Assembly: GCF_038751955.1 (NCBI RefSeq) | Contig: NZ_JBCEXH010000002.1 | Coordinates: 124,001 to 188,000, forward strand | DNA length: 64,000 bases | DNA from: Methanocalculus natronophilus | Lineage (GTDB): Archaea; Halobacteriota; Methanomicrobia; Methanomicrobiales; Methanocorpusculaceae | Direction: 5' to 3' | Part shown: positions 20,282 through 28,483 of the stretch, in pieces | Layout of the letters: each line of letters begins with the position of its first letter | How positions within the stretch are numbered: position 1 is the stretch's first letter | Notes under the pieces: generated by a model | Seen by the model: only the letters and a program-made list of their open reading frames with translations | Databases searched by the model: none | What the model was told of the DNA's origin: nothing | Translations under genes and position numbers: made by a program

Positions 20282-20376
20282 TTGTGAGTAGTACTGATTC
20301 TACTTCGGACTCATCCTGATTCGGATTCCATCTGCGCCGTTTTCGATCCTGTTCTGGGCTGTAGGAGATCCTGACG

Positions 20377-20384
20377 TTTTTTTT
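20377..20384 (+). terminator. Oligo-T after ruvB
   Basis: Eight T about 95 bases after the ruvB stop, in the 266-bp gap before the coenzyme M operon. The gap is otherwise AT-rich and geneless. Confidence 0.4.
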
Positions 20385-20492
20385 GCAGAAAGGAGCCCTG
20401 CATCACCGGTTGAGCGGGATCATATGATCCCTTCACGCATAAAATGTATACTATTAGACAATTATATTGATTTTTGTAACCTATAAGCCCAA

Positions 20493-20506
20493 TTTTTATT
20501 AAATTT
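20493..20506 (+). promoter_or_regulatory. TATA box of the coenzyme M operon
   Basis: TTTTTATTAAATTT, about 45 nt before the ATG at 20548, in a markedly AT-rich stretch. This predicts a leader of roughly 20 nt. It would drive all six genes to 26221, since every junction between them overlaps or abuts. Confidence 0.5.
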
Positions 20507-20547
20507 AGGAAAATCATTATCATATCCCGGGGGCGAAAAACTACATT

Positions 20548-21315
20548 ATGCATACGATCACCATCCTCCCCGGCCATGATCGACATGGCGACCCTGAAGG
20601 GTTTGATGCCATCCATATCGCACCCGGCGACACCCTCTCAATCGTCGGGCCAACCGGATCAGGCAAAAGCGCTCTTATCAATGACATCGAGGTCTTTGCA
20701 CAGGGCGATACCGCTACCGGCAGAACCATTCTCCTTGATGGCGCACCTCCCCCGGAATCATCTGTCAGGGATCCTGCAAAGAAACCGATTGCCCTCATCA
20801 CCCAGACCACGAAATGCTTAGCCGATCTGAGGGTGGAAGAGTTCCTGGGGATGCATCTCCGTGCCAGGAAAATTACAGACACAGGCCTGGTTGAGAAAGC
20901 AATCCGTCTTGCAAACGAGTTTACAGGGGAGCCGATCCGGCCCGATTGCCGGATCTCCTCTCTCTCCGGCGGCCAGACGAGATCCCTCCTTGTTGCGGAT
21001 GCAGTCATCATCTCAGGCGCCCCGATCATCCTCCTCGATGAAGTGGAGAACGCAGGAATCTTCCGTGACCGTGTCATAACCTGCCTCAAAAAGACAAATA
21101 CCTCCGTCATCTTCGTCACCCATGACCCGCTTGTTTCACTGATGTCAGACAAAAGGATAGTGATGGGGAACGGTGCGGTGAAGACGATCCTTGAGCCGGA
21201 TGGATCTGAGGCGGCGGTTCTGAAGCAGGTGACTGAGATCGACGCATACCTCTCTGATCTCAGGGAACGGCTCAGGGCAGGCGAGATCCTGGGCGAAGCG
21301 GTACCACAGGCATGA
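20548..21315 (+). CDS. ABC-type ATPase of a methanogen cofactor cluster (function unknown)
   Basis: 255 residues, a single nucleotide-binding domain without membrane segments. Walker A is GPTGSGKSALI (residue 34), the signature LSGGQTRSLLVADA (residue 141), Walker B APIILLDEVENAG and the H-loop FVTHDP. No permease gene is nearby, so it is probably a soluble ABC ATPase acting on a protein or cofactor instead of a transporter component. First gene of the operon ending in comDE, overlapping the next gene by ATGA. The C-terminal 50 residues form charged helices. Conservation in other methanogens is likely but not testable here. Confidence 0.85.
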   Translation: MHTITILPGHDRHGDPEGFDAIHIAPGDTLSIVGPTGSGKSALINDIEVFAQGDTATGRTILLDGAPPPESSVRDPAKKPIALITQTTKCLADLRVEEFLGMHLRARKITDTGLVEKAIRLANEFTGEPIRPDCRISSLSGGQTRSLLVADAVIISGAPIILLDEVENAGIFRDRVITCLKKTNTSVIFVTHDPLVSLMSDKRIVMGNGAVKTILEPDGSEAAVLKQVTEIDAYLSDLRERLRAGEILGEAVPQA

Positions 21316-22016
21316 AACTGATCATTGTCGCCGGGCCGCCATCGACCGGAAAAACCGCAATAATCAGGCAGATAATCAGCAATCTCCCAAAGAATTCCGT
21401 TGCCTACCTCAAGATAGATGTCGTATATGCAACCGAGGATACAGAGATTGCAGGCGAATTCGGGATACCTGCAAAAAAAGTGATATCAGGCGACCTCTGC
21501 CCGGACCATGCCGGGATCATGGTCCTCTCTGACGCCTTTGCCTGGGCAGAAAAGGAGGGTGCAGACTACCTGATCGTGGAATCGGCAGGTCTCTGCCTCA
21601 GGTGCACCCCCTACACAACCGAATCACTCGGAATTGCGGTTCTCTCCGCAATATCGGGAACCCATTCCCCCTACAAGATGAGCCCGATGATCGCGCTTGC
21701 TGATGTCGCAGTCGTCACCAGGATCGATCTCGTCTCACAGGCAGAAAAGGAAGTATTCCGCGAGGCGATCCGGGATGTGGCACCAGGTGTTGAGATCATC
21801 GAGACAAACGCCCCGATCGGCACAGGGCTGCGGTACCTGATGAAGATCATCAACGACCTTGCACCAGTCAGAGACCAGGCAGCAGTCAAACTCAGGGGCA
21901 GTCCTCCGCTTGGTGTCTGCACCGTCTGTGTCGGGAAAAAAGAGATCGGCTGGGAGAACCATTTCGGCGTTGTCCGCAGGCTTGATGGCGCCGGTACACT
22001 CTTCCGGGGGGAATAG
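21312..22016 (+). CDS. P-loop GTPase (HypB/UreG-like) of the coenzyme M operon
   Basis: 234 residues. Walker A is GPPSTGKTAIIRQI at the N-terminus, and TRIDL takes the position of the NKxD guanine motif. Cysteine pairs are LCLRC (residue 97 region) and CTVC near the C-terminus (GVCTVCVGKKEIGWENHFGVVR). The layout resembles metal-insertion GTPases HypB and UreG, which deliver nickel to enzymes, but the histidine-rich stretch is missing. It abuts the Fe-S protein gene with no gap. Suggested role: metal or sulfur cofactor delivery to a partner encoded downstream. Confidence 0.85.
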   Translation: MKLIIVAGPPSTGKTAIIRQIISNLPKNSVAYLKIDVVYATEDTEIAGEFGIPAKKVISGDLCPDHAGIMVLSDAFAWAEKEGADYLIVESAGLCLRCTPYTTESLGIAVLSAISGTHSPYKMSPMIALADVAVVTRIDLVSQAEKEVFREAIRDVAPGVEIIETNAPIGTGLRYLMKIINDLAPVRDQAAVKLRGSPPLGVCTVCVGKKEIGWENHFGVVRRLDGAGTLFRGE

Positions 22017-22631
22017 ATGACCTGGACACCCCCTGGTAAAGACTGCGGCCTCTGCGGAGCAGATTCCTGCATTGCATTCTCCTCACTTGTTGCTGCGGGT
22101 GCAAAGAAACTTGTAGAATGCCCCTTTTACGAAGAGGAGAGGAAAAAAAGGTACATTTCAAAGACAGACCGGAATACAGCAGATCTCCTCGGCCACAGTT
22201 TTGACTTTATCCTCCATCCCTTCCCAGGTGAAATCTCAACCAGAAAGGATGTCGTCCCGTTCAGGGCGGATCTCGTTGAAAAATGGGAGATAAAAACCGG
22301 AGATCTCGTCATCGGGAGACCGGCAGGCGCCGGATGCCCGATCACCCATGCACTCAGGGTGACAGCAGCAGATCCGGTAAGCGGGATCATCTCCTGCCAT
22401 GTCACAAGCCCGATTGAGGCGCGGGAAGAAGAGTATCTCGATATTGTGGCATACCATGTCCATGCATTTGAAGGTATAGCCGAAGTGATCGGCCGCGAAC
22501 CGACATTCGGGCTGAAGCAGCGGTTCCAACCCGGATACTGCCTGATGGGGATCTCACACACCGGTGTTGTGAATATGGTTATCATGACTGACGACGGACT
22601 CCGTGTCAGGGTAGAGGGGATCGGACTGTGA
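22017..22631 (+). CDS. 4Fe-4S cluster protein of the coenzyme M operon
   Basis: 204 residues. The N-terminus CGLCGADSCIAF...VECPFY is the C-x2-C-x4-C-x(15-17)-C Fe-S motif known from RnfB and the corrinoid iron-sulfur protein. The rest is a beta-rich domain (GDLVIGRPAGAGCPITHALRV and PGYCLMGISHTGVVNMV) that I associate with uncharacterised methanogen proteins. It may carry electrons to, or hold a cluster for, the downstream marker-16 protein. Starts directly after the GTPase stop and overlaps the next gene by GTGA. Confidence 0.85.
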   Translation: MTWTPPGKDCGLCGADSCIAFSSLVAAGAKKLVECPFYEEERKKRYISKTDRNTADLLGHSFDFILHPFPGEISTRKDVVPFRADLVEKWEIKTGDLVIGRPAGAGCPITHALRVTAADPVSGIISCHVTSPIEAREEEYLDIVAYHVHAFEGIAEVIGREPTFGLKQRFQPGYCLMGISHTGVVNMVIMTDDGLRVRVEGIGL

Positions 22632-23863
22632 AGACCAGAGCCGTGATCAGCCAGAAGATACGGGACGGGGATGCTGTTGTCATCCCTGCTCCCGAATTCA
22701 AAAAAAGGGTGCGGGATGGAGAAAGATTCACACCAGACGATGTTGATGTCGTCACCTGCGGGACATTCGGGGTGATGTCAGGGACGTATGCAGTCCTGAC
22801 AATCCCGGTTGCAGAGCCGGGTGCATTCAGAAAAGCCGGGAAAATCTTCCTGAACGGGGTGCCTGCATATCCCGGCCCATGCCCCAATGAGCGGCTTGGG
22901 CTTGTTGACTGTATCGTCTATGGAACAGCGCACCGTGACGAGCGGTATGGGGGAGGCCATCTCTTTTCCGATCTCGTCTCCGGGAAGGCGATCGAGGTTC
23001 TGGCTGAAGCAGACGGGAAGGACTATTCCAGTACGGTCACCCTCTCTGACTGTGGTTTTGCCAGGCTCCAGACCACGCGGTCCGCATTCAGAAACTATAC
23101 AGGCTTTATTTTTGAACATGAAGGCGTTCTTCCGACGATCTTCTCGGCAACCGGGCTGCATGGGCCTGCCAGGGAGATCTCGGTCTCAGGATGCGGCGAG
23201 ATCAACCCGGTGGAGAATGATCCCGGTCTCCGGTACCTCCAGCCCGGTGTACCGGTCCTTGTGAATGGTGGAACCGGAATCATCATCGGCACCGGGACAC
23301 GATCCACCACAGAACGGTCAAACCTTGCCGTTGCAGCTGATATGGATGGTATGGCGCCCGGCATGATGGGAGGATGCGTCACGTCAGACGGCCCGGAATG
23401 CCTCACGTCTGTTGCAGCTGCGGTTCCCGTGACAGATGAAGCAACTCTCAGATGGTTGTTGGTGCTTGACGAGGATATCCCACTCCCCATTGCCGGGATC
23501 ACCAGGAGACAGCCCATCGGATCGTCCCATTATGGCAGGATCTGGCAGGGGACAGACCGGGGAGTCCGGGTGCAGGAAGAGAGGTGTCTTGCCTGCGAAC
23601 CCTGCCAGGCACGACGGATCTGCCCCTCAGACGCAGTCAGGGAAGACCATACCATTGACCGGTCACGCTGCCTTGCCTGTGGCGCCTGCGCCTCGGTCTG
23701 CGAGGGGAAGGTATACACCATAGAGCTTGGATCTGTTCTGGTTGGTGAGCAGGAGATCCCGGTCACCTTCCGCCAGTCCGATCGGACCCGTGCCGAACGG
23801 CTCTGCAGGCAGCTTGCGAGGCAGATCATGGATGGATCGTTTCAAATGCCGGAGGGGCCATGA
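22628..23863 (+). CDS. Methanogenesis marker 16: DUF39 (COG1900) domain fused to 2x[4Fe-4S] ferredoxin
   Basis: 411 residues. Residues 1-315 are the COG1900 domain (VVTCGTFGVMSGTYAVLTIPV; GGTGIIIGTGTRSTTERSNLAVAADMDGM). Residues 320-370 are a ferredoxin with CLACEPCQARRIC and CLACGACASVC. COG1900 relatives convert an aldehyde (aspartate semialdehyde) into a thiol (homocysteine) with sulfide and electrons. The last step to coenzyme M, sulfoacetaldehyde to the thiol, is the same chemistry, and the gene lies directly upstream of cysteate synthase and comDE. I recall a report assigning this step to a Methanocaldococcus homologue, but cannot verify it here. Confidence 0.9.
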   Translation: MKTRAVISQKIRDGDAVVIPAPEFKKRVRDGERFTPDDVDVVTCGTFGVMSGTYAVLTIPVAEPGAFRKAGKIFLNGVPAYPGPCPNERLGLVDCIVYGTAHRDERYGGGHLFSDLVSGKAIEVLAEADGKDYSSTVTLSDCGFARLQTTRSAFRNYTGFIFEHEGVLPTIFSATGLHGPAREISVSGCGEINPVENDPGLRYLQPGVPVLVNGGTGIIIGTGTRSTTERSNLAVAADMDGMAPGMMGGCVTSDGPECLTSVAAAVPVTDEATLRWLLVLDEDIPLPIAGITRRQPIGSSHYGRIWQGTDRGVRVQEERCLACEPCQARRICPSDAVREDHTIDRSRCLACGACASVCEGKVYTIELGSVLVGEQEIPVTFRQSDRTRAERLCRQLARQIMDGSFQMPEGP

Positions 23864-25101
23864 CCCATATGCTCTCCTGCCCGGTCTGCAGATCCACCTT
23901 TCCGGATCAGGGCGAACTGACCTGCCCTGGGGGACATCCCGGCCTTCTCAGGGCAATCTATCCTGAAGAGAGACTGGTGCTTCGTGATGAGCCCGGCCTC
24001 TTCAGGTATCAGAGCTGGCTCCCGGTGAGGGAGATCCCAAATACGGGTGCAGGTCCAGTCACCTTCCGTTCTGTTGGGTTTGCCCGTGAGACGGGGCTGT
24101 CAGAACTCTGGATCGGATTCTCAGGCTATGCTCCGGGGAGAGGCGCCCATGTACCCACCTGTTCGTTCAAGGAACTGGAGGCATGGCCGACACTGCAGCG
24201 GGTCAGGGAGACGGGAGGCGGCACCCTCGTTGTCGCATCTGCCGGAAACACCGGGAGGGCTTTTGCCGAGGTTGCCGATGCAATGAACCAGCCTGTCCTG
24301 CTCGTCATCCCAAAACGGGCGCTGGAACGTATCTGGACAACAAAGCCTGCGAGGAATACCATCCTGGTTGCCGTGAACGGCGACTACTCGGATGCTATCG
24401 CACTTGCAGACCGGATCTGCACGCTCCCAGGCTATACCCCCGAAGGCGGTGCAAAAAATGTTGCCCGCCGCGACGGGATGGGGACCGTCTTCCTTGATGC
24501 AGCCTGCACAATCGGCAGGATACCCGACCACTACATCCAGGCAGTCGGGAGCGGGACAGGCGCAATCGCCGCATGGGAGGCAGCGCTCCGGCTTGTTGCG
24601 GACGGCCGGTTCGGCGGGACGCTGCCCCGCCTGCACCTGGCCCAGAATCTCCCTTTCATCCCGCTCAAATCCGCCTGGGATGCCCGGAGGCGTGAGATAG
24701 TTCCTGAACTTGATATGCCGCATGCAGAAGATGCGATCAGGGCTGTCAATGCCGATGTCCTGACAAACAGAAAACCACCCTATGCCGTGCCTGGCGGCCT
24801 GTATGATGCGCTCTCGGACTGCGGCGGAGCAATGTATGGGATCACAAACCATGATGCCAGGCAGGCGGGAGATCTCTTTGAGGCTACCGAGGGAATAGAC
24901 CCCGATCCGGCAGCAGCAGTCGCCTGCGCAGCCCTGCTGGCCGCAGTCGATCAGGGAGATCTTCCAGAGAATGCCTGTATTCTTTTGAATATCACCGGCG
25001 GGGGATACAAGGCAGTTCCTCTGAAACATACCGTGCAGCCGGTTGAGACCGTGCAGCCCGGTGAAATGCCGTCTTTCCTGGCAGGAGAAGAAGATGTCTG
25101 A
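23860..25101 (+). CDS. Cysteate synthase (coenzyme M biosynthesis)
   Basis: 413 residues, PLP fold-type II, related to threonine synthase. An N-terminal zinc-knuckle CPVCRSTF...LTCPGGH precedes the fold. The PLP lysine is in TCSFKELEA (about residue 106), and the phosphate loop is SAGNTGRAF. The combination and the comDE neighbour identify it as the enzyme making L-cysteate from O-phosphoserine and sulfite in Methanosarcinales and Methanomicrobiales. A threonine synthase is the alternative by sequence alone, but context argues against it. Overlaps marker 16 by ATGA and comDE by 8 bp. The aspartate-type aminotransferase for the next step is not in the window. Confidence 0.88.
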   Translation: MTHMLSCPVCRSTFPDQGELTCPGGHPGLLRAIYPEERLVLRDEPGLFRYQSWLPVREIPNTGAGPVTFRSVGFARETGLSELWIGFSGYAPGRGAHVPTCSFKELEAWPTLQRVRETGGGTLVVASAGNTGRAFAEVADAMNQPVLLVIPKRALERIWTTKPARNTILVAVNGDYSDAIALADRICTLPGYTPEGGAKNVARRDGMGTVFLDAACTIGRIPDHYIQAVGSGTGAIAAWEAALRLVADGRFGGTLPRLHLAQNLPFIPLKSAWDARRREIVPELDMPHAEDAIRAVNADVLTNRKPPYAVPGGLYDALSDCGGAMYGITNHDARQAGDLFEATEGIDPDPAAAVACAALLAAVDQGDLPENACILLNITGGGYKAVPLKHTVQPVETVQPGEMPSFLAGEEDV

Positions 25102-26221
25102 AGAAGCAGTTGTTCGTATCCTGAAAGAAGAGGAGATCGGGCTCATCTCCCACCTCCCCTGTGACCGTGCCGGTCTGCTCTGTTCGATGATCACCAGCAT
25201 GTCGCCGCATGTCCCCCTGCTTCGTGAGGAGGACGGGGTCGGAGTCTCGGCAGGAGCGTACCTGGCAGGTATCAAACCAGCCATGGTAATCCAGAGCTCA
25301 GGACTTGGAAACATGCTCAACGCCCTCCTCTCACTCCATGGAACATTCCACCTTCCCCTTCCGATCATCACAAGCTGGCGGGGGGTATACCAGGAAGCAA
25401 TTCCGGCACAGGTTCCATTCAATTCCCGCCTTCCTGAAATACTCAGGGGAGCTGGCATCCCCTATGCAACCGTGATGGACGCAGACGAACTCCCCCGCTT
25501 CAGGGAGATGCTCTCGCTCTCTTTTGCAGAGATGACCCCCACTGTCACCCTCATTTCGCCTGCCTGTTTTACCAGTGGAGCGTGTCCCCCTCCCGACTTC
25601 CCTGACCGGAGCAGAACAGTTGCCCCAATCCCCGGATCTGTTCTCAGGACACCGCTGATGACCCGCTACGATGCAATCGCCGCGGTTGCTCCGCACCTGG
25701 GATCAGCCCTCTGCGTCAGCAATATCGGGGTTCCCTCAAAAGAGCTGTATGCCATCTCCGATCGGCCGGAGAACTTCTATATGCTTGGTTCATACACCCA
25801 GGCATCACCGATTGCACTTGGGCTTGCCCTCTCAACAGACCGGGAGGTGGTGGTGATCGACGGCGACGGCTCACTCCTTGGATCCGCAATCCTTCCAGTC
25901 ATTGCTTCGCTTGGACCAAAGAACCTGACCATCATCTGCCTTGATAACGGCACCTTCGGTTCCACCGGCAACCAGATCACCCAGGGGTATGCCACAACCG
26001 ATCTGGCACAGATAGCAGCAGCTGCCGGGATCAGACAGTGCGTGCAGGTGCAGACAGCAGAGGAGCTTGATGCCGCACTCAGGGCAAAGAGGGGCGGCCC
26101 ATGGTTCATCCACGTGATCATCCGGCCTGGCAATGCGGATGTCCCAAATATCCCCCTTTCGCCTATAGAGATCCGGAACCGGTTCATGGAGGCTGCCAGC
26201 ACCACGCCACCCTTCAGATGA
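25094..26221 (+). CDS. comDE: Sulfopyruvate decarboxylase, fused alpha and beta subunits
   Basis: 375 residues from ATG 25094 (GGAGAAG upstream). Residues 1-165 are the ComD half (LPCDRAGLLCSMI; EEDGVGVSAGAYLAG with the catalytic Glu). Residues about 190-375 are the ComE half with the thiamine-diphosphate motif VVIDGDGSLLG ... LDNGTFGSTGN. The enzyme decarboxylates sulfopyruvate to sulfoacetaldehyde. Methanocaldococcus encodes two separate subunits, whereas fusions are usual with the cysteate synthase route. Ends 8 bp inside the convergent AEC transporter gene. Confidence 0.95.
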   Translation: MSEEAVVRILKEEEIGLISHLPCDRAGLLCSMITSMSPHVPLLREEDGVGVSAGAYLAGIKPAMVIQSSGLGNMLNALLSLHGTFHLPLPIITSWRGVYQEAIPAQVPFNSRLPEILRGAGIPYATVMDADELPRFREMLSLSFAEMTPTVTLISPACFTSGACPPPDFPDRSRTVAPIPGSVLRTPLMTRYDAIAAVAPHLGSALCVSNIGVPSKELYAISDRPENFYMLGSYTQASPIALGLALSTDREVVVIDGDGSLLGSAILPVIASLGPKNLTIICLDNGTFGSTGNQITQGYATTDLAQIAAAAGIRQCVQVQTAEELDAALRAKRGGPWFIHVIIRPGNADVPNIPLSPIEIRNRFMEAASTTPPFR

Positions 26222-27134
26222 GCAGCAGGGTGATTACCGGTATCGTCAGAAGCGATACGATTGTCGAGAGAAAGACGAGCTGGGAGGCAAACCGCTCGTC
26301 TGATCCATAGATATCTGCAAAGATCACCGTCATCGATCCAACCGGCATTGCGGCAAGCAGGACGAGGATTCCCAGAACAAGCGGGTCATCGATGAGCGGG
26401 GAGAGGAGGAGGTATGTGCCGGCAGGCAGCAGAAGAAGCCTGAGTGCTGCCCCGGTGAAGACGGTTCTATCACCAATCATCTCCCGTACCGGAAACGTGG
26501 CAAGGAAGGAGCCGACGATCAGCATGGCAAGCGGTGTCGTCAGGTCGCCAAGGAGCCGCATCGCATCGATTGCGGGAGATGGTATCCGGATCTCAAGCAG
26601 GAAGAGCGCAAGGCCCAGGAGAGAGGCCGTGATACCAGGATTGACCAGGAGTTTCAGATTGAACTCGTACCTGCCGGTGATCATCACGATCCCGGCAGAG
26701 AAGATGAGGAGATTGAAGATCAGGTTGGCTATTGCCACATAGAAGATGCTCTCCGGGCCAAAGAGGGCAGCAGCTATTGGAAAACCCATGAACCCGATAT
26801 TGCCAAAGAGGATGCCAAACGAGAAGACCCCGCGGCGCATCTCTCCCATCGTGAAGAGGCTGCTTCCGATATATGCCACAATGACTGCAAAGAGGTAGAA
26901 GACGACGACCCCAATGCAGAAGATGAGGGTATTTGAGAGGAGGGCAGCAGACGGCGGTATCTGCATCGAGACGATAATGAGTGCAGGAATTGAGACATTT
27001 AAGAGAAATAGCGATATTTTATGGGTTGCGTGCCGGTCAAGGATACCAAGACGGTATGCGGCGTAGCCGGTTGCAATGAGGATCATAAGAACTGCAACCG
27101 GGTCAATTATCATGAGAAATTCCGCCAGCACCAC
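26214..27134 (-). CDS. AEC (auxin efflux carrier) family transporter
   Basis: 306 residues with about ten membrane helices in two inverted five-helix repeats. Typical family features are GILDRHATHKISLFLLNVSIPALI at the N-terminus and the PLAMLIVGSFLA and AAMPVGSMTVIFADIYGSD segments in the second half. Members export organic acids or malonate; the substrate is not predictable. The start is GTG 27134 with GAGGTG upstream, or ATG 27113. It is convergent with comDE and divergent from the flavoprotein at 27241. Confidence 0.9.
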   Translation of the reverse strand: MVLAEFLMIIDPVAVLMILIATGYAAYRLGILDRHATHKISLFLLNVSIPALIIVSMQIPPSAALLSNTLIFCIGVVVFYLFAVIVAYIGSSLFTMGEMRRGVFSFGILFGNIGFMGFPIAAALFGPESIFYVAIANLIFNLLIFSAGIVMITGRYEFNLKLLVNPGITASLLGLALFLLEIRIPSPAIDAMRLLGDLTTPLAMLIVGSFLATFPVREMIGDRTVFTGAALRLLLLPAGTYLLLSPLIDDPLVLGILVLLAAMPVGSMTVIFADIYGSDERFASQLVFLSTIVSLLTIPVITLLLI

Positions 27135-27207
27135 CTACACCTCAAAAGAACCATTGCACCTGATCAGACAATTGGTTTTTGCTCAAGAGAAGAGAAGAAT
27201 GCAAAAG

Positions 27208-27220
27208 TTTCTTTATCAAT
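27208..27220 (+). promoter_or_regulatory. TATA-like box for the iron-sulfur flavoprotein
   Basis: TTTCTTTATCAAT sits 21-33 nt before ATG 27241. With no ribosome binding site in between, a leaderless transcript is likely. Confidence 0.4.
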
Positions 27221-27240
27221 ACAGGCGATCATCAACTGGT

Positions 27241-27861
27241 ATGACAATCAGGGTTCTCGCCTTTGCAGGCTCACCCCGCCGCCACGGCAACTCCGAGACA
27301 CTTCTTGACTGGGTGCTTGACCGGATGCAGCAGGAGCAGGATACAGATGTTTTGAAGTATGCACTCACTGAGATCACGATCGCCCCCTGTAAAGGCTGCA
27401 ATGCCTGTGAAAAACTAAATACCTGTGTCCAGAAGGATGATCTCGTCTGGGTTGAGGAGAAGATTCTCGAAGCCGACATCATCATCCTCTCCGCACCCAT
27501 CTTCTGCATGGGTATTGCGGCACAGGCAAAGGCCCTCATTGACCGGGCACAGGTCTTCCGCTCCCGGAAATATGTCCTGAAACTGCCTGTTGTGCCGGCT
27601 GAACGGAAGGGAAAGCGGATTGGGATCTTCCTTGCATCTGCGGGCCAGGACTGGGATTTTGTCTTTGATGCTGCAGTTCCTTCCGTGAAATGCCTCTTCA
27701 ATGTCATTGATGTGAAGAACAAGGATATCCGGTACCTGATGGTGAATAATGTCGATGAGAAGGGTGCGGTCAATGATCACCCGACTGCACAGAAAGATGC
27801 TCGTGCACTTGCAGATGAGGTGATCGCCACGATGCGGGAGATGAAGGGAGAGAGCCAGTGA
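27241..27861 (+). CDS. Iron-sulfur flavoprotein (Isf family)
   Basis: 206 residues from ATG 27241; longer upstream frames lack family similarity. The FMN loop is AGSPRRHGNSETLLDWVL. The compact cluster motif has cysteines 50, 53, 56 and 62 (CKGCNACEKLNTC), the 4Fe-4S site of Methanosarcina Isf. The second flavin contact is SAPIFCMGIAAQAKALIDRAQ. Isf proteins are dimeric electron carriers implicated in oxygen and peroxide reduction. Followed after 31 bp by a related gene, so the pair probably arose by duplication. Confidence 0.92.
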   Translation: MTIRVLAFAGSPRRHGNSETLLDWVLDRMQQEQDTDVLKYALTEITIAPCKGCNACEKLNTCVQKDDLVWVEEKILEADIIILSAPIFCMGIAAQAKALIDRAQVFRSRKYVLKLPVVPAERKGKRIGIFLASAGQDWDFVFDAAVPSVKCLFNVIDVKNKDIRYLMVNNVDEKGAVNDHPTAQKDARALADEVIATMREMKGESQ

Positions 27862-27892
27862 TGCTTGAGAAGTGCATGAAGGGAGGCGGGCT

Positions 27893-28483
27893 ATGAAAGC
27901 CCTTGGGATATCGGGAAGCCCGAGGCGCCGGGGCAATACCGAGATGCTTCTTGATGCGTTTCTTGCGGGGGCGGAGGAGGCGGGTGCTGATTGTGAAAAG
28001 ATCGTCCTCTGCGATCTTGAGTTTTCGTCCTGCAAAGGATGCAATGCATGCCACAAGACCGGTGAATGTATCGTCGAAGACGATCTGACCCCGATATTTG
28101 AGGAGATCCTGGAAGCAGGGATCGTTGCCCTTGCCTCTCCCATCTATTCGATGAGCGTGACAGCGGAACTAAAAGCGTTTATCGACCGTGGCCAGGTCTT
28201 CTGGGCACGGAAGTTTATCCTGAAGGATCTCTTTTTTGACGAGGAGCATACCCGGCAGCACAGGGGAGTCTTCATCTCGACAGCTGGCCAGGACTGGGAT
28301 CATGTCTTTGACGCGGCATACCCGGTGATTACCGCATTCTTCAATGACATCGGGTTTGCCTATAGAGACAATATCACAGCCGGCAACATGGACGGCTATA
28401 AGGGGATCAAAGCTCACCCGACAGCGCTTACGGAAGCAGAGGAGAGGGGGAGAAAGATTGTGGGGGAACTGGAGAGAGTTTGA
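27893..28483 (+). CDS. Iron-sulfur flavoprotein (Isf family), second copy
   Basis: 196 residues from ATG 27893 with GGGAGG upstream. FMN loop ISGSPRRRGNTEMLLDAFL; cysteines 47, 50, 53 and 59 (CKGCNACHKTGEC) form the cluster motif; flavin contact SPIYSMSVTAELKAFIDRGQ. Shares the GQDWD(F/H)VFDAA segment with its upstream neighbour, so they are paralogues. Electron-transfer role inferred from family. Its 3' end overlaps the broken vapC gene on the other strand by 70 bp. Confidence 0.92.
   Translation: MKALGISGSPRRRGNTEMLLDAFLAGAEEAGADCEKIVLCDLEFSSCKGCNACHKTGECIVEDDLTPIFEEILEAGIVALASPIYSMSVTAELKAFIDRGQVFWARKFILKDLFFDEEHTRQHRGVFISTAGQDWDHVFDAAYPVITAFFNDIGFAYRDNITAGNMDGYKGIKAHPTALTEAEERGRKIVGELERV

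Follow-up and report, generated by a model that had tools for sequence, protein, structure and literature searches.

An ATPase-GTPase-Fe-S protein module encoded ahead of coenzyme M genes in Methanocalculus natronophilus is common to archaea and many bacteria

Results

The window analysed in this study is a 64 kb stretch of the genome of Methanocalculus natronophilus (Methanomicrobiales; genome G000, 2.0 Mb and 99.7% complete) that carries an operon of six genes on the forward strand. It opens with three open reading frames, hereafter the trio, that encode a soluble ABC-type ATPase of 255 amino acids (20548..21315; ABC_tran over cut-off), a HypB/UreG-like GTPase of 234 amino acids (21312..22016; cobW/HypB/UreG over cut-off), and a 4Fe-4S protein of 204 amino acids (22017..22631; FeS family PF04060 over cut-off). 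These are followed by the genes for methanogenesis marker 16 (MMP16/ComF; 22628..23863, with a GTG start; TIGR03287 at 509 bits, cut-off 364), cysteate synthase (CS; 23860..25101; TIGR03844 at 597 bits, cut-off 325), and a fused sulfopyruvate decarboxylase ComDE (25094..26221), whose two halves score over the cut-offs of TIGR03845 and TIGR03846. Successive genes are joined by a 4-bp overlap, an abutting junction, two further 4-bp overlaps, and an 8-bp overlap. An earlier note on this DNA had placed the trio ahead of marker 16 with overlapping or abutting junctions, which the coordinates bear out, and had spoken of it as driving the operon, which is true of its leading position and of nothing beyond that.

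The intergenic region between ruvB upstream and the operon downstream (20282..20547, forward strand, read from the sequence) contains an AT-rich stretch at ca. 20490-20530 that is likely the operon promoter. Beyond the other end of the operon, at 27076-28483, lie two adjacent genes resembling NADPH-dependent FMN reductases or iron-sulfur flavoproteins with CxxC motifs. The order of the trio genes is kept in all of the 30 related loci that were first retrieved and in dozens more, and its recurrence across phyla rules out chance co-location. We regard MMP16 as an operon partner of the trio that lies outside the module core.

The trio ATPase consists of a single ABC domain with a generic ABC_tran score in the family scan. 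No permease gene was found in the operon cluster of the window or among the conserved neighbours at trio loci, in agreement with the initial description of an ABC ATPase without a permease. ABC transporters carry a D-loop of the DEPTSALD type; the D-loop region of the trio ATPase family reads DE[VI]ENA in 167 of 174 homologous ORFs (duplicates included).

The GTPase has the SIMIBI G-domain fold of the HypB/UreG type. It matches the Pfam family cobW with 51 bits (cut-off 20.7), and the nearest folds to its structure model (pLDDT 87.4) in VIA-align are Ni-bound UreG (5xkt; Z 21.6 over 184 residues at 2.3 A) and Zn-bound HypB (2hf8; Z 20.0), with matches to Ni-UreG and Zn/Ni-HypB spanning Z 17.8-21.6 at 16-26% identity. 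The protein nevertheless falls below the curated HypB/UreG cut-offs (TIGR00073, 57.4 bits against 121.2; TIGR00101, 26.8 bits against 204.2). The Cys pairs that had been noticed early on are confirmed as the motifs CPDH (63-66), CLRC (95-98), and CTVC (203-206), of which C63, P64, D65, H66, C95, C98, C203, and C206 are invariant in a set of 28 sequences and in one of 47 that spans archaea and bacteria. CPDH occupies the metal-site position of HypB and UreG; the profile alignment matches it to the Cys-His motif of HypB and puts C95 and C98 near the ENVGNxxC position of HypB, suggesting a putative Cys/His metal site in the G domain. Unlike HypB and UreG, the trio GTPase has an additional C-terminal CxxC, and its partners are an ABC ATPase and an Fe-S protein rather than HypA or UreEF.

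The N-terminus of the Fe-S protein is a 4Fe-4S domain with the spacing CX2CX4CX16C (PF04060 at 32 bits, cut-off 23). It had been described as RnfB-type, which is right for the presence of such a domain and can be refined for its kinship, because it is nearer to the large subunit of the corrinoid/Fe-S protein (CFeSP; PDB E 2e-7) than to RnfB (E 0.003). The four-Cys cluster domain is common to both proteins, with up to ~40% identity over ~40 residues to the N-terminal PF04060 domain of the CFeSP large subunit, but the trio protein lacks the corrinoid-binding part, and its remaining 140 residues form a beta domain. In this C-terminal domain, GCPxxH, PxxC, and H181 are conserved throughout (invariant residues C107, H111, C175, and H181). 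The structure model has a pLDDT of 90.9, with values >90 across most of residues 61-204, and residues 62-202 gave no clear fold match in Foldseek or VIA-align (best Z 5.5 over 64 residues); we do not take this as a sign of a new fold. One homolog (L022:2200-2727, genome G011) is short of ca. 36 residues including the third and fourth cluster cysteines, due to either an assembly error or loss of the cluster.

The gene neighbourhood has been published previously, so the window is not its first notice. The legend to Fig 2 of Chadwick et al. 2025 (PMC12068725) describes an ATPase, a "Ni2+ binding GTPase", and a COG2000 Fe-S protein as frequent neighbours of coenzyme M genes across several methanogen orders, and the role of these proteins is stated there as unknown. 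The window trio, an ATPase, a GTPase, and an Fe-S protein beside coenzyme M genes, fits this definition, with COG2000 being the label of those authors. That passage concerns methanogens only, and we found no mention in the main text of the bacterial trios, NifS-containing quartets, bias toward CS, or link to ComA that we describe below. Literature searches with locus names and for a HypB/desulfurase/ABC/Rrf2 cluster returned no functional study of the trio. The view that the trio is the best candidate in the window for an undescribed system thus holds for its function but not for its neighbourhood.

Among archaea, our profile covers Halobacteriota. Across 61 Methanomicrobiales genomes, 35 have both the trio and CS and 23 have neither, while 3 are discordant, two of them (G006 and G027) at contig ends; the comparison with MMP16 likewise gives 35 with both and 23 with neither, and the discordant genomes are G014, G027, and G047. 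Both co-occurrences have a p value of 2e-13, which overstates the evidence because the genomes are related. The Fe-S gene is present in 49/196 Halobacteriota, with CS in 48 and MMP16 in 46 of these 49 genomes (p 4e-21 for the Fe-S gene and CS, though the genomes are not independent). Read in the other direction, the Fe-S gene is missing from 45 of the 91 Halobacteriota with MMP16 and from 37 Halobacteriota with CS (both at E<=1e-25). By coordinates, CS adjoins the Fe-S gene in 44/49 genomes and MMP16 in 35/49; among genomes in which the Fe-S gene adjoins just one of them, this is CS in 10 (mostly in one family, perhaps three independent cases) and MMP16 in one. In archaea, CS stays with the trio more constantly than any other neighbour, MMP16 included.

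Individual genomes illustrate how these genes come apart. Some Methanoregulaceae have the trio, CS, and ComDE but no MMP16. This arrangement is seen in the one-contig genome G047 and on the complete Methanoregula chromosome G106 (L077), and MMP16 is also absent from the trio genome G253. Genome G014 has MMP16-CS-ComDE with no trio upstream (L137); the adjacent genes resemble thiamine and tryptophan biosynthesis genes, and the genome has the DUF364-type pair. In G036, the operon decayed as a unit: a deletion joins GTPase residues 1-115 to ComDE residues 261-366 (L139:1882-3235), the ATPase gene is broken, and the Fe-S, MMP16, and CS genes are lost. Other archaeal trio neighbours are sulfur genes encoding ThiF, ThiS, CysK, CysE, LarE, NifS, or an SsuA-family protein, e.g., at L039, where a trio copy is flanked by CysE, CysK, ThiS, ThiF, and SsuA-family genes. 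Several of the source records come from metagenome bins whose labels are doubtful, and trio loci labelled as Bacilli (L067, a full methanogen trio-MMP16-CS-ComDE operon), Nanohalarchaeota (L066), and Patescibacteria (L114) are probably binning errors.

Beyond archaea, a genome-wide alignment scan returned GTPase relatives with 54-60% identity from Bacillota, Chloroflexota, Omnitrophota, Acidobacteriota, Bacteroidota, Verrucomicrobiota, Pseudomonadota, and others among the matches listed, and nearly all bacterial loci among these matches retain the ATPase-GTPase-FeS order. MMP16 was not found above cut-off in any of the 43 bacterial trio genomes searched. A phylogenetic profile against marker 16 had been suggested in the earlier note, and it shows a trio that spans many phyla without MMP16, an outcome that the note had named as refuting its proposal, though the trio is sparse within most of them: 14/94 genomes in the class of Pelotomaculum, 5/97 in Omnitrophota, 1/148 in Bacteroidota, and 1/121 in Chloroflexota, with the single hits in the latter two being the query genomes themselves. 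Plasmid records (PLSDB) yielded two matches only, a paralog-type GTPase from Fusobacterium and a weak one in Embleya. The former record (L140), a 2.1 Mb "plasmid" of Fusobacterium vincentii, is probably a chromosome mislabelled as a plasmid.

Of 46 bacterial loci, about half have a gene for a NifS-type cysteine desulfurase between the GTPase and Fe-S genes. A CymR/IscR-like regulator of the Rrf2 family is encoded at 16 of the 46 loci, often ahead of those of the NifS type, and transsulfuration-type enzymes are represented by a CBS/CysK-type PLP enzyme (9/46) and a cystathionine synthase/lyase (7/46). The NifS-type quartet often has no enzyme gene alongside, and we recognised no sulfonate genes near NifS-type loci. 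Some Clostridia carry the trio immediately after ComA or ComA-ComB (L086 and L088, as well as G614 and G615 by coordinates), and several have ComA or ComAB within 7 kb of it. This association is statistically weak: within the class of Pelotomaculum, ComA is present in 14/14 trio-positive and 26/35 trio-negative genomes (p 0.045, related genomes). Among NifS-type trio genomes, 2/15 have ComA. Taken as a gene set, the bacterial version resembles SUF and ISC operons in bringing together a soluble ABC ATPase, a cysteine desulfurase, and an IscR/CymR-like regulator. Unlike these operons, the core module encodes no SufB/SufD or IscU scaffold, and a HypB-like GTPase and a 4Fe-4S protein take its place. 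SufB/SufD is also absent from the conserved neighbour set of the 46 loci.

In the GTPase tree, the methanogen trio clusters with the trio of Clostridia (95% SH-aLRT), while NifS-type bacteria form a separate set (95%) that includes two archaea of apparently Methanocellales-like lineage, one of them with NifS (L171). A deep branch (99%) divides these trio sets from DUF364-linked pairs and a diverged trio, which is found in Methanosarcinaceae-like genomes and a second family and sits directly behind CS. Two deeply diverged trios therefore both adjoin CS, through convergence or inheritance depending on where this unrooted tree is rooted. The DUF364-linked pairs belong to a sister module (L031-L037 and L047; e.g., L033:7272-9736) with a paralogous GTPase (36-42% identity) and ATPase (40-43%) that share the same invariant motifs. 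It differs from the trio in lacking the Fe-S gene and in the DUF1858-like N-terminal domain of its ATPase; where checked (L031 and L033), the next gene encodes a DUF364/DUF4213 "heavy-metal chelation" protein.

Discussion

The trio is an old, mobile module common to archaea and many bacteria. In the latter it mostly adjoins genes that mobilise sulfur, and its role is probably a general one and not the service of a single methanogen enzyme. We tentatively propose, at a little under an even chance, that it is a self-contained, nucleotide-driven module that handles sulfur or metal-sulfur cofactors and that methanogens have co-opted at the sulfonate entry of coenzyme M synthesis. Its link to sulfur is drawn from gene context, and the chemistry we infer. 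CS and ComA catalyse reactions that both use sulfite (PMC12713407, PMC3087415), and the NifS context in bacteria is one of sulfur mobilisation, which together place the module in sulfur handling and point to the sulfite step as the place where it most likely meets coenzyme M synthesis. This synthesis can do without the module, as seen from the 37 Halobacteriota that have CS without the Fe-S gene and from G014 with its trio-less MMP16-CS-ComDE genes, and the many CS-bearing genomes without a trio show that it is conditional or replaceable.

Protein families, motifs, folds, gene order, co-occurrence, and phylogeny are the basis of a working model in which metal binding, the flow of sulfur, the output of the module, and every catalytic step are conjectural. 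By analogy to HypB and UreG, the CPDH/CxxC site of the GTPase would take up a soft metal ion and release it again, and the Fe-S protein, with its 4Fe-4S domain and a second Cys/His-bearing domain, could serve as a carrier of clusters or sulfur. The ABC ATPase would power a conformational opening step and the handover. Sulfur may enter from the dedicated cysteine desulfurase in many bacteria and from sulfide in sulfide-grown methanogens. The module would have been recruited next to CS in methanogens and next to ComA in some Clostridia, where its output probably supports the supply of sulfur for the sulfite step or the enzymes that handle this sulfur.

The gene context cannot separate sulfur supply from the maturation of a sulfur-pathway metalloenzyme. 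We consider it rather unlikely that the trio is a classical maturase inserting a metal or cluster into one client of sulfur or sulfonate metabolism other than MMP16, in the way that HypAB and UreEFG serve nickel enzymes. Maturation systems typically combine soluble NTPases with a carrier protein, and the GTPase resembles HypB and UreG in its fold and CPDH/CxxC site, but there is no one client gene that goes with the trio in every context and the NifS-type quartet often stands alone. CS is a PLP enzyme and, to our knowledge, needs no nickel. Another potential client, the COG1900 homocysteine enzyme L-ASST, was dropped as its homologs also occur in Methanomicrobiales without the trio. MMP16 itself had been put forward as a possible target, and the common operon with its 4-bp overlap, the strong co-occurrence in Methanomicrobiales, and the ferredoxin domain that the family scan found inserted in MMP16 would all suit its maturation or reductive activation by the trio. 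Yet this is very unlikely given the 43 bacterial trio genomes without MMP16, the presence of trio, CS, and ComDE without it in G047 and Methanoregula G106, and the 45/91 MMP16 genomes that lack the Fe-S gene. In addition, E. coli with MJ1681 on a plasmid made coenzyme M according to Chadwick et al. 2025 (PMC12068725), which may also count against this reading. What persists of the original proposal is a metallochaperone-like multi-protein system tied to coenzyme M biosynthesis. Activation of methyl-coenzyme M reductase had also been considered and is unlikely, and we reject maturation of this enzyme or its F430, since the trio is common among bacteria and these are not methanogens.

Two further explanations assign the trio a more direct part in sulfur or sulfonate metabolism. 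It might be, in bacteria along with NifS, an undescribed anaerobic producer of sulfite from persulfide or sulfide, or of an equivalent activated sulfur, for sulfonate-forming enzymes of the CS/ComA type. This would match the shared sulfite use of its archaeal and clostridial neighbours (PMC12713407, PMC3087415) and the sulfane sulfur that NifS would yield, but the module has no siroheme, molybdenum, or flavin enzyme for a 4- or 6-electron oxidation and ComA is absent from most of the NifS-type genomes tested, making this reading improbable. Scarcely credible is an ATPase that energises an SsuA-like sulfonate importer with an adjacent substrate-binding protein: an SsuA-family gene does adjoin the trio in L039, L041, L075, and L171, but we found no such gene at the window locus and at most other loci, the SsuA-like proteins have no evident signal peptide by inspection, and no permease gene lies beside the trio.

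The trio thereby turns from a methanogen curiosity into a cross-domain module with a testable function, for which Heliobacterium, Pelotomaculum, and Methanoculleus offer further model organisms, and the sulfite/cysteate end of the pathway replaces MMP16 as the experimental focus. Should the module prove to be a new assembly line for Fe-S or metal-sulfur cofactors, it would be an addition to SUF, ISC, and NIF. If it supplies the sulfur of sulfonates, it would address the source of sulfite for coenzyme M in strict anaerobes and methanogens that live on sulfide.
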